Below, piece by piece: positions 12,187-41,632 of a stretch of 64,000 bases of DNA; the first letter of the stretch is position 1, and each line of letters starts with the position of its first letter. This DNA is from Promicromonospora sp. MEB111 (GTDB lineage: Bacteria > Actinomycetota > Actinomycetes > Actinomycetales > Cellulomonadaceae), in contig NZ_JARVSD010000001.1 of assembly GCF_030209445.1 (NCBI RefSeq), positions 1-64,000 of the forward strand. The letters are read 5' to 3'. The notes below the pieces were generated by a model that saw only the letters and a program-made list of their open reading frames with translations, was not told the origin of the DNA and did no database searches. The translations under genes and the position numbers were made by a program.

Positions 12187-12228
12187 TGTCAGACGTACAG
12201 GTCACCGGGATGACCTGTACGTCTGACA
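12187..12228. repeat. Palindromic repeat copy 1 (18-bp arms)
   Basis: Arms 12187-12204 and 12211-12228 are exact complements around CCGGGA. It belongs to a four-copy family in this window with the plan TGTCrGAC-nnn-CAGGTCA-6 nt-TGACCTG-nnn-GTCyGACA; here nnn is GTA/TAC. It lies 12 nt beyond the pgm stop and abuts the GH6 remnant, so it probably acts as the pgm terminator. Confidence 0.75.
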
Positions 12229-12240
12229 CGTCGGAGCAGG

Positions 12241-13926
12241 TCAGGCCAGCGCCTCGTCGACCAGCGTCCGGGCGGCGTCCTGCACCTCGGTGAGGTGGTC
12301 CGCGGACACGAACGACTCCGCGTAGATCTTGTACACGTCCTCGGTGCCGCTGGGCCGCGCGGCGAACCACGCGTCCCGCGTCGTGACCTTGAGCCCGCCC
12401 ACCTTGGCGCCGTTGCCGGGCGCCTCGGTGAGCTTGGCCGTGATGGCCTGCCTCGCGAGCGTGGTGGACGAGACGTCCGACGGCGACAGCGCGCCGAGCC
12501 GGGCCTTCTGCTCCCGCGTGGCGGCGGCGTCGACGCGCGCGTACCAGCTCTGGCCGTACCGCTCGACCAGGTCGGCGTGGTGCTCGGAGGGAGACCTGCC
12601 GGTGGTCGCCAGGATCTCCGAGGCGAGCAGCGCGAGCAGCAGGCCGTCCTTGTCGGTGGACCAGACGCGGCCGTCCTTGCGCAGGAACGACGCGCCCGCC
12701 GACTCCTCCCCGCCGAAGCCGACCTCGCCCGAGAGCAGACCCGGGACGAACCACTTGAAGCCGACCGGCACCTCGACGAGGCGGCGGTCCAGCCCCTCTG
12801 CCACCCGGTCGATGAGCGCCGACGACACGAGCGTCTTGCCGATCGCCGCGTCGGCGGGCCAGCCGGGCCGCGCCCCGCCGTACAGGTACTCGATCGCCAC
12901 GGCGAGGAAGTGGTTGGGGTTCATGAGGCCGTCGGCCGTGACGATGCCGTGCCGGTCGGAGTCCGCGTCGTTGCCGGTCGCGACGTCGAAGGGCGCCGGA
13001 CCGTCGCCGCCGGTCATCCGCTGCACCAGCGACGCCATCGCGTACGGGGAGCTGCAGTCCATGCGGATCTTGCCGTCCCAGTCCAGCGTCATGAACGACC
13101 AGCGCGGGTCGACCTGCGGGTTGACGACGGTGAGATCGAGGTCGTACCGCTCGGCGATCGCGCCCCAGTACTCGACCGACGCCCCGCCCAGCGGGTCGGC
13201 GCCGATCCGCACCCCGGAGGTGCGGATGGCCTCCAGGTCGAGCACGTTGGCGAGGTCGTCCACGTACGTCGACAGGAAGTCGTGCCGGTGCGTGGTCTCG
13301 GCGGCGAGCGCCTGGTCGAGCTGCACCCGCTTCACCTGCCCGACGCCGGTGCGGAGGATCTCGTTCGCCCGGTCCGCGATCCACCCGGTCGCGTCGGAGT
13401 CGGCGGGTCCGCCGTGCGGCGGGTTGTACTTGAAGCCGCCGTCGCGCGGCGGGTTGTGCGACGGCGTCACCACGATGCCGTCCGCGAGGCCCAGACCCGG
13501 AGCGGCCAGGCCCGGGGTCCCCTCGGCGAACCGCGTCTGGTTGTGCAGCAGGATCGACTGGCTGACGGCAGGCGTCGGGGTCCACGAGTCGCGCGCGTCG
13601 ACCATGACGTCGACGTCGGCCGCGGCGAGCACCTCCAGCGCCGTCCGCCACGCCGGGTAGGACAGCGCGTGCGTGTCCCGCCCGATGAACAGGGGCCCGT
13701 CCGTGCCCTGACCACGCCGGTACTCCACGATCGCCGCGGTGATCGCCACGATGTGGTCCTCGTTGAAGGCATGGTCGAGGCTCGACCCGCGGTGCCCGGA
13801 CGTGCCGAAGGCGACCTGCTGGCCAGGGTCGCCCGGATCCGGGGAGAGGTCGTAGTAGGCCCCGACCACCCGGTCGACGTCGATCAGGTCGCTGGGCTGG
13901 GCGGGAGTTCCGGCACGCGCATCCAT
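12241..13926 (-). CDS. pgm: Phosphoglucomutase (alpha-D-glucose specific)
   Basis: The enzyme interconverts glucose-1-phosphate and glucose-6-phosphate, linking glycogen and sugar-nucleotide synthesis to glycolysis. The 561-residue length fits the E. coli Pgm type. Visible blocks are FGTSGHRG (near residue 41), the phosphoserine loop VVTPSHNPP (near 150), the magnesium site DADSDRHG (near 315) and the sugar-binding EESAGASF (near 410). Its start ATG 13926 is divergent from a rhodanese gene with 135 nt between. A palindromic repeat follows the stop. Confidence 0.95.
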
Positions 13927-14061
13927 ACGCCCGATACTGCCAGGTCCGGGCGGGTCCGTCGTCGCCCACGCCCGCGATCACCCCTGGGCCCCACGCCCGC
14001 CCCGTGTCCGCTCCCGGGAGACGACGGCCCCGCCGCCACGCCGCCGTCGTAGGCTGGCGAC

Positions 14062-14397
14062 ATGTTCCCGCCGATGCAGCCCGAGATCCCCTCGCTCCAC
14101 CCCAGCGAGCTCGACCCGTCCGCCCCCGTCCCCGCCGGCTCCGTCCTGCTGGACGTGCGGGAGCAGGACGAGTGGGACGCCGGGCACGCCCCGGGCGCGG
14201 TGCACATCCCGCTGGGCGACCTGCCCGTGCGGTACGGCGAGCTCGACGCCGACGCGCCGATCCTGGTCATCTGCCACTCCGGCGGCCGGTCCGCGCGCGC
14301 CACGCAGTGGCTCAACGAGGCGGTCGGGTTCGAGGCGACCAACCTGGACGGCGGCATCGTCGCCTGGGCCGGCGCCGGCCTGCCGGTCGAGCGCTGA
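14062..14397 (+). CDS. Rhodanese-like domain protein
   Basis: This is a single-domain rhodanese of 111 residues, a cytoplasmic sulfur carrier or sulfurtransferase. The active-site loop CHSGGRS begins with Cys71, and the CH2-type start DVREQDEWDAGHAPGA is near residue 30. Six-residue active loops starting with Cys are typical of true sulfurtransferases rather than phosphatases. The gene is convergent with the GHL10 gene (20 nt between stops). ATG 14062 is used; ATG 14074 is possible. Confidence 0.88.
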   Translation: MFPPMQPEIPSLHPSELDPSAPVPAGSVLLDVREQDEWDAGHAPGAVHIPLGDLPVRYGELDADAPILVICHSGGRSARATQWLNEAVGFEATNLDGGIVAWAGAGLPVER

Positions 14398-14417
14398 CCG
14401 CCGCTCGGGGCTGAGGG

Positions 14418-40687: not shown

Positions 40688-40733
40688 CGTCCGGGGCCGA
40701 GCCCGCGGGAAGGGCCGGGGGAACGCCTGCACC

Positions 40734-40786
40734 GCCGGGTGGGTGACGGAGAGGTAGCAGTGCTACGTCAGCGTTACCCACCCGGC
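40734..40786. terminator. Near-perfect 15-bp inverted repeat
   Basis: GCCGGGTGGGTGACG (40734-40748) pairs with 40772-40786 except one base; the loop contains GTAGCA-G-TGCTAC (40754-40766), itself a hairpin. It sits between the convergent DUF6194 and MOSC genes. Confidence 0.6.
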
Positions 40787-40838
40787 CGTGTACGCCTCCC
40801 GCCGGAGGGCCGGTCGACAGCGAGCCGAGCGTGGCCGG

Positions 40839-41552
40839 TCAGTCGACGACGGCGCGGGCCGCGGCCTGCTCGCTGCGGCGGTGCATGTCGACGCTGAGCC
40901 GGATCTCGCCCGCGGCGTGCGCGTTGAGCAGCCGCTGCGCGAGCTCCTCCAGGGTGTCGGGTTCGGCAGCGGCGGCCGCGTCCGCTCCGGCTCCGGCCGC
41001 CGCGCGCGCCAGCCCGTACTGCGCGCCGAACCAGTCCGCGACGGTCACCCCGTGCAGGGGATGGTGCACGACGTCGACGGTGTCGCCCGCGCCGAGATCG
41101 CCGTTCTCGATCACGCGCAGGTAGGCGCCCGTGCGGTTGGCCTGCGTGAACCGGCGCACCCAGCGCTGCTCGCCGAGGCGCCGTCCGAAGGTCTGGCAGG
41201 GCGTGCGCGGCTGCGTGACCTCCAGCAGCGCCGAGCCGACCTGCCACCGCTCGCCGATCACCGCACCGTTCACGTCGAGGCCGCTGACGCGCAGGTTCTC
41301 GCCGAAGAGCCCGGGCGTGACCTCCCGGCCCAGCTCGGCGGACCAGTGGTCGGCGTCCTCCTGGGCGTAGGCGTAGACCGCCTGGTCGAGGCCGCCGTGG
41401 TTGGCGCGGTCGGCCTGCACGTCCGCGTAGAGGCCGTAGGGCCGCACCTTGACCCGCCCCTCGACGGGACGCTTGTCGATCGCCGTGACCCCCACGGGGC
41501 CGGGGTCTGGATGCAGGACGTACACGCGACAGACCGCGAGGAGCTCAGCCAT
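40839..41552 (-). CDS. MOSC-domain protein (YiiM-like)
   Basis: MOSC domains bind or transfer sulfur to molybdenum cofactor; the YiiM type reduces N-hydroxylated bases such as 6-hydroxylaminopurine. Visible blocks are QADRANHGGLDQAVYAYAQE near residue 46, TPGLFGENLRVSGL near 80, and the conserved Cys in TQPRTPCQTF near 117. An Ala-rich tail and C-terminal helical domain (3-alpha type) follow. A palindromic repeat lies just upstream. Confidence 0.85.
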   Translation of the reverse strand: MAELLAVCRVYVLHPDPGPVGVTAIDKRPVEGRVKVRPYGLYADVQADRANHGGLDQAVYAYAQEDADHWSAELGREVTPGLFGENLRVSGLDVNGAVIGERWQVGSALLEVTQPRTPCQTFGRRLGEQRWVRRFTQANRTGAYLRVIENGDLGAGDTVDVVHHPLHGVTVADWFGAQYGLARAAAGAGADAAAAAEPDTLEELAQRLLNAHAAGEIRLSVDMHRRSEQAAARAVVD

Positions 41553-41588
41553 GCGGTCATTTTCTCATCCGCACGGCACCCCTCCCAG

Positions 41589-41632
41589 GTGTCGGACCCA
41601 CAGGTCACCCGGGTGACCTGTGGGTCCGACAC
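41589..41632. repeat. Palindromic repeat copy 4 (44-bp perfect palindrome)
   Basis: Two 22-bp arms meet at 41610/41611 with no spacer. The inner 42 nt follow the family plan with CCA/TGG and an A-to-G change balanced by T-to-C in the opposite arm. It begins 4 nt beyond the stop of the phosphoesterase gene and is 36 nt upstream of the MOSC gene start. Confidence 0.8.

Follow-up and report, generated by a model that had tools for sequence, protein, structure and literature searches.

The first 64,000 nucleotides (nt) of contig NZ_JARVSD010000001.1 of Promicromonospora sp. MEB111, referred to here as the window, include four palindromes at gene ends that belong to one sequence family, dispersed through the genome from which the window was taken (6.23 Mb, named G000; labels of the type G001 designate comparison genomes). 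The members of this family lie behind genes, keep their arms paired while bases change, show asymmetries between the two strands and persist at orthologous gene ends, and they probably have a role in terminating transcription. The explanation that we favor, and consider rather probable, is that they are U-less (I-shaped) terminators or 3'-end hairpins forming a single sequence family, which is dispersed in the manner of repetitive extragenic palindromes (REPs) without the REP machinery. A sequence-only reading of this DNA had reported four palindromes sharing a 42-nt plan, TGTCrGAC-NNN-CAGGTCA-N6-complement, and all four were found where it had placed them:

12187..12228, minus strand: copy 1 (triplet GTA), in a convergent gap, 12 nt past the stop of a leftward phosphoglucomutase-family gene
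20138..20185, no strand assigned: copy 2 (triplet CCT), a perfect 48-nt palindrome in a convergent gap
34052..34093, minus strand: copy 3 (triplet CCA, sense loop CCCCGG), in a tandem gap, 71 nt past an intradiol-dioxygenase gene
41589..41632, minus strand: copy 4 (triplet CCA, G variant), in a tandem gap, its core 5 nt past a metallophosphatase gene

All four fit the plan with 0 mismatches, and the triplets GTA, CCT, CCA and CCA, as well as the A/G position, are each matched in the opposite arm. The palindrome extends beyond the 42-nt plan in copy 2, where it reaches 48 nt, and in copy 4, where it reaches 44 nt. Every copy lies past the stop of a leftward gene, as had been noticed, to which we add that copies 1 and 2 are in convergent gaps and copies 3 and 4 in tandem gaps. 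When folded as sense RNA the window copies have energies of -38.5 to -48.2 kcal/mol (z -6.6 to -8.1), and 0 of 200 shuffles folded as well for each of the four. A comparison of the window with Rfam gave 0 matches at the gathering thresholds.

The existence of these four copies only, which had been named as a finding that would speak against a dispersed family, does not hold: G000 has 108 palindromes at three or fewer mismatches, and the reversed pattern used as a control gave 0. At the same threshold 7 to 200 copies were found in 11 of the 12 other genomes of the genus and none in G007, and 46 genomes of other genera had 0 copies. The exact plan was present in at least 60 stretches among 84,980 named species, a collection that possibly does not hold the window's own record, and all of them are from Promicromonospora (sukumoe, kroppenstedtii, panici, thailandica, umidemergens and sp. 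AC04). The search of the genome and its relatives with a covariance model, proposed in the sequence-only reading, was carried out with a model (R1) built from 61 copies. It matched diverged relatives in all 13 genomes of the genus, with at least 19 strand-hits in G007 and at least 150 in the top genome. Across the bacterial family at least 33 of 200 genomes were matched, 13 of them Promicromonospora and 20 among the 187 others. Of these 20, 17 have at least 1 to 6 strand-hits each, and the richer ones are G081 (at least 25), G147 (at least 24) and G152 (at least 15), for which another scan gave 37, 40 and 20, respectively. The hairpins from outside the genus that were inspected are recognizably related and carry genus-specific bases; in G147, G081 and G152 (loci L258, L259, L260 and L266) several of the related hairpins are arranged as doublets about 61 nt apart. 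A midpoint-rooted tree of the 13 species, based on eight window genes, groups the copy-rich G000, G006, G009 and G010 into one clade and places G008, which has 69 copies, apart from it. Two copies are located at contig ends of the G000 assembly (G000:C24:2-43 and G000:C30:420282-420323), and the repeats may therefore have broken this assembly.

The position relative to genes was determined for 203 distinct copies, 72 from G000 and the remainder from other species, orthologues included; they were collected mostly by pattern, so that strongly diverged copies are under-represented, and the counts mix species. Of these copies, 193 are between called genes (118 in tandem, 67 in convergent and 8 in divergent gaps), 6 are within called genes and the other 4 are at edges. 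The tandem copies are grouped behind the upstream gene: 103 of the 118 start within 25 nt past its stop (43.3 when placed at random in the same gaps), and 106 are closer to that stop than to the next start. Divergent-gap or in-gene copies are retained across species in two places (L015/L036 and L022/L067/L143/L164), where short unrecognized genes or another role may account for them. Contiguous stretches of 294, 255 and 220 kb from three genomes (770 kb) are free of the bias of picking by pattern. Strong hairpins of any sequence are present there in 57 of the 76 convergent gaps, in 76 of the 245 tandem ones and in 2 of the 116 divergent ones, so that a long hairpin can be considered a common mark of gene ends generally in this genus. 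The palindrome family makes up 31 of the 144 strong gene-end hairpins of these stretches (26 tandem, 5 convergent and 0 divergent; one in-gene G000 row with 9 mismatches and an ambiguous G010 row with 5 mismatches from the gap-length scan were not counted), and divergent gaps represent 35-39% of the length of the gaps of at least 50 nt.

Pairing is conserved, in that 94% of the stem cells pair and 12 of the 22 pairs have changed on both sides, a level reached by 0 of 500 shuffles, and pairing drops to 16-45% in controls in which the structure was slid. The segments TGTC, GAC and CAGGTCA are nearly invariant and the triplet between them is variable. Since a palindrome reads identically on both strands, strand-specific signs are needed to tell RNA from DNA. 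Among the non-Watson-Crick stem cells of tandem copies read on the sense strand there are 50 G-U and 27 A-C (p 0.012), or 14 versus 4 when the tandem copies of G000 are taken alone, and no G-U excess is seen in convergent copies (9 G-U versus 14 A-C). An earlier, smaller set had given 36 versus 14, a ratio that was weakened by enlarging the set. The loop CCCCGG is found 23 times in the sense and once in the antisense orientation (17:1 when counted by distinct loci); this asymmetry was first seen in the initial 49 tandem copies (12:0) and persisted in the enlarged set. CCCG is one of the stable YNMG tetraloops. Two of the three strand signs that we compared favor RNA, which points to the palindromes acting as RNA hairpins. 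Over 182 copies the 48-nt element has a median stability of -41.0 kcal/mol. In the 8 nt that follow the 48-nt stem, three or more U were present in 14 of 116 tandem copies and in 2 of 66 convergent ones; counting from the 42-nt core gave 25 and 8 copies, respectively. The U-tract is absent from the family, and the hairpin is stable and near the stop codon, as is the case for I-shaped terminators.

Under the explanation that we favor, the palindromes would be the DNA of RNA hairpins formed at mRNA 3' ends. In the nascent RNA, a stem of about 20 bp with a 4-nt loop would fold right behind the stop codon, and would then stop transcription without a U-tract, as an I-shaped terminator, or set the 3' end of the mRNA after termination by Rho. 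One palindrome could serve both genes of a convergent pair. An older hairpin would have been copied to many gene ends in Promicromonospora, chiefly in the clade of G000, G006, G009 and G010, and the copies would afterwards have persisted, decayed, or changed the variable triplet through paired substitutions.

Several observations weigh against this explanation. The excess of G-U over A-C is modest, the cells counted are not independent of one another, and the third strand sign is not significant, the sense RNA being the more stable in 49 copies and the antisense in 40, with 27 equal (p 0.15). The foot of the stem is at a median of 10 nt past the stop in tandem and 7 nt in convergent copies, where a terminating ribosome could interfere, and in the 770 kb the tandem hairpins of the family start at a median of 8 nt past the stop (n=26) versus 33 nt for the others (n=57). 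There are also the 8 divergent-gap and 6 in-gene copies, some of them conserved between species, and the gene boundaries are those of our own codon-usage gene caller, with no annotation used.

The short distance to the stop codon, which is 15 nt or less in 66 of the 118 tandem copies and in 50 of the 67 convergent ones and is shorter than that of other hairpins, speaks for an alternative in which the palindromes would be REP-like elements of the 3' untranslated region that act on mRNA stability or translation termination, the hairpin blocking 3' exonucleases or stalling the last ribosome. The REPs found near stop codons in Escherichia coli are said to act in this way. The enrichment in convergent and tandem gaps and the rarity in divergent gaps are nevertheless common to strong hairpins generally, as terminators predict, and we regard such an effect on the message as a doubtful substitute for termination.

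The history of the copies was followed at orthologous gene ends. In a comparison of three genomes a family copy was retained in 14 of 18 syntenic comparisons. By inspection, the gap has collapsed in one of the other four comparisons, decayed remnants are left in two, and in the last G006 has a copy that G000 lacks, an apparent gain of about 50 nt located beside a second hairpin that both genomes have. When the downstream neighbor differs (n=4) the copy was kept behind the upstream gene in two comparisons and was missing in two, and in 8 further comparisons of this three-genome set the orthologue was absent. In 90 pairs of orthologous copies the differing sites amount to 53% in the flanks 9-20 nt out, 28% in the loop, 23% in the triplets and 8% at the conserved stem positions. 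Of the changes in triplet pairs, 44 of 73 are two-sided and preserve a standard pair. The gene end of copy 4 illustrates the variety of outcomes: its orthologues carry a copy of the GTA type in G009 and G010 and a CCA copy in G006, a diverged yet paired hairpin in G002, G004 and G012, unrelated hairpins in G007 and G008, and, among the matches listed, no family copy in the remaining genomes.

Between species the stems of the family show 0.104 differences per aligned site (22 pairs), compared with 0.143 for the other gene-end hairpins (62 pairs), and the medians are equal at 0.109; these figures exclude gene ends at which just one of the two species has a hairpin (80 other, 8 family), and the hairpins used for comparison include members of two other repeated families. 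No sequence constraint beyond that of other gene-end hairpins is apparent. The family is therefore not clearly held tighter than these, and its likeness across loci is best explained by copying from a common origin. At the conserved positions paralogues resemble each other as closely as orthologues do, although picking by pattern also lowers the differences there, and identical triplets are found in 63% of orthologues versus 17-20% of paralogues. This is the pattern that a burst from several subtypes, preceding the split of these species, would give.

The sequence-only reading had likened the palindromes to REP or BIME elements. They do behave as such elements in their dispersal: like REPs, BIMEs and REPINs they are about 100 short palindromes, mostly extragenic, near stop codons and with lineage-specific copy numbers. 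They differ from them in three features, among those described for REP elements in the accessible text of PMC3733652 and PMC3116915, that argue against membership in that group. The tag GTAG occurs near the foot of 9 of 182 copies, and CGTC is not a one-ended tag, as it follows the core on the sense side in 39, on the antisense side in 49 and on both sides in 22 of the 182. No neighbors less than 400 nt apart were present among 32 pattern hits in the 770 kb, which come from three Promicromonospora genomes. The REP-associated transposase that had been suggested as a companion was looked for without success, Y1 (RAYT) transposases (PF01797 at E 0.001) being matched in 0 of the 13 Promicromonospora genomes, compared with 5 of the 14 genomes used as controls.

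These negative results also bear on the idea that the family is a selfish mobile palindrome, REPIN-like or MITE-like, that survives at gene ends as insertions elsewhere are purged, any terminator activity being incidental. Such an element would agree with the large differences in copy number between lineages (0-200 at 3 mismatches), with the single apparent gain in G006 and with a second dispersed hairpin family, described below, that gives 40 forward half-site hits in G000 versus 2 in G010. Besides the missing transposase, however, direct matches of 2-10 nt in the flanks of 182 copies were at most 0.03 above shuffled pairs, which is no excess indicative of target-site duplication, and hardly a lone end exists. 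Pairing was checked genome-wide for 20 half-sites of G000 that seemed to stand alone, and 19 of them proved to be paired. In the 770 kb there were 88 lone half-site hits at three or fewer mismatches (1 at one mismatch, 0 exact) versus about 55 in Markov resampling, and the 30 of these hits that were listed are all in called genes. Complementarity clearly above chance stops about 4 nt outside the 42-nt core. An origin of the palindromes as insertion-sequence ends was discarded on the same scarcity of lone half-sites and of flanking direct repeats. The DUF222-HNH endonucleases were likewise rejected as a mobilizing partner, with no copy in 30 of their loci taken from 218 match rows; at one of these, in G002, tandem TTGTCAGACC units are present (L288, positions 314-340) and the palindrome is absent. 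Considered together with the persistence at syntenic gene ends and the strand asymmetry, these data make a purely selfish element improbable.

The binding of a sequence-specific DNA-binding or nucleoid protein to two inverted half-sites, a protein-binding site having been the other suggestion of the sequence-only reading, would suit the near-invariant segments around a variable triplet but is very improbable, as the half-sites are nearly always paired at a constant spacing, the stems change about as much as those of other gene-end hairpins, and the loop and wobble asymmetry tracks the transcribed strand. The other part of that suggestion, a dispersed element used as a terminator, fits the number of copies, their bias toward gene ends, the strand asymmetries and the persistence or decay at orthologous ends; termination itself is the part that we infer.

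In 14 of 192 copies the triplets of the two arms disagree at two or three positions; many of these are pairs of common types, an indication that single arms may be exchanged between copies. These arm chimeras, the switching of triplets at orthologous loci and the copy-number bursts of the second family are possible traces of a broader process, which we put forward tentatively and hold to be less likely than its converse: the gene-end hairpins of this bacterial family could comprise several repeated terminator families forming an interchangeable pool, which would spread and rewrite one another without a transposase through exchange of a single arm between copies and repair of the other arm from the first.

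The TRIT motif, which the RNIE study reportedly gives as a terminator model for Mycobacterium tuberculosis and which recurs within one actinobacterial genome, may be the nearest relative in kind of the Promicromonospora family. The use of a TRIT model is mentioned in the accessible part of PMC3526491. Highly structured 3' ends lacking U have been reported for Streptomyces clavuligerus (PMC8269248) and I-shaped terminators for mycobacteria (PMC12288462), both according to partial texts. Those GC-rich actinobacterial ends resemble the palindromes in having a strong GC-rich hairpin soon after the stop and no U-tract; they differ in that no repeated sequence family is mentioned in the accessible portions of these reports, whereas here one family contributes more than a fifth (31 of 144) of the hairpins. 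The statement that ordinary terminators do not share sequence between unrelated genes was too strong in view of PMC1852404, according to which uptake sequences of Neisseria and the Pasteurellaceae serve as terminators when present as inverted pairs. These have in common with the palindromes that a repeated inverted motif gives many gene-end terminators the same sequence; uptake sequences also occur singly, unlike the half-sites of Promicromonospora, which are hardly ever found alone. Repeated stem-loop families have been catalogued systematically (PMC2267715, seen in part), and a literature search at listing level, with most subscription journals outside its coverage, returned no report of repeated palindromes in Promicromonospora or its neighbors. 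As far as the partial sources go, termination by U-less hairpins in high-GC actinobacteria has been argued both ways. About 100 natural copies per genome, variable at known positions and present or absent at orthologous gene ends across 13 species, constitute a ready natural experiment on this subject, and the family also lends itself to studying the spread of short palindromes in genomes in which no REP transposase was matched.

The genes served by the window copies are unrelated, as had been proposed, and belong to phosphoglucomutase, flotillin, MFS, intradiol dioxygenase and metallophosphatase families:

12241..13926, minus strand: gene before copy 1, with PGM/PMM domains
18658..20127, plus strand: rightward gene ending before copy 2, SPFH/flotillin
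20185..21303, minus strand: leftward gene ending before copy 2, MFS transporter
34165..35067, minus strand: gene upstream of copy 3, catechol/intradiol dioxygenase
41637..42863, minus strand: gene before copy 4, calcineurin-like phosphoesterase

The rightward neighbor of copy 1 ends 267 nt away. The core of copy 2 is 13 nt past the rightward flotillin-like gene and 2 nt past the leftward MFS gene, and its 48-nt palindrome overlaps the final base of the stop codon of the latter (20185-21303). The next leftward gene after copy 3 begins 34 nt further on.

Other repeated hairpins were observed in the course of the analysis. Nucleotides 5829-5879 of the window are a member of the second dispersed gene-end hairpin family, with the half-site GTGCKGGRTRTTCGCCCTT, for which there are also 49 forward hits in G006 and 0 in the control, and all 6 of its copies from the three sampled stretches lie in convergent gaps. 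A third family, consisting of GGCCTAAGTTTCTTCGCTTTGAG and its complement, has 8 copies in the three sampled stretches, with members at L181 (G000:C1:64177-64234 and 69067-69146) and relatives. The gene at 40839 is followed by a 45-nt imperfect inverted repeat (40715-40805 of the window), a portion of which is found again elsewhere in G010 (C18:204223-204350); the repeat may therefore represent a fourth dispersed family.

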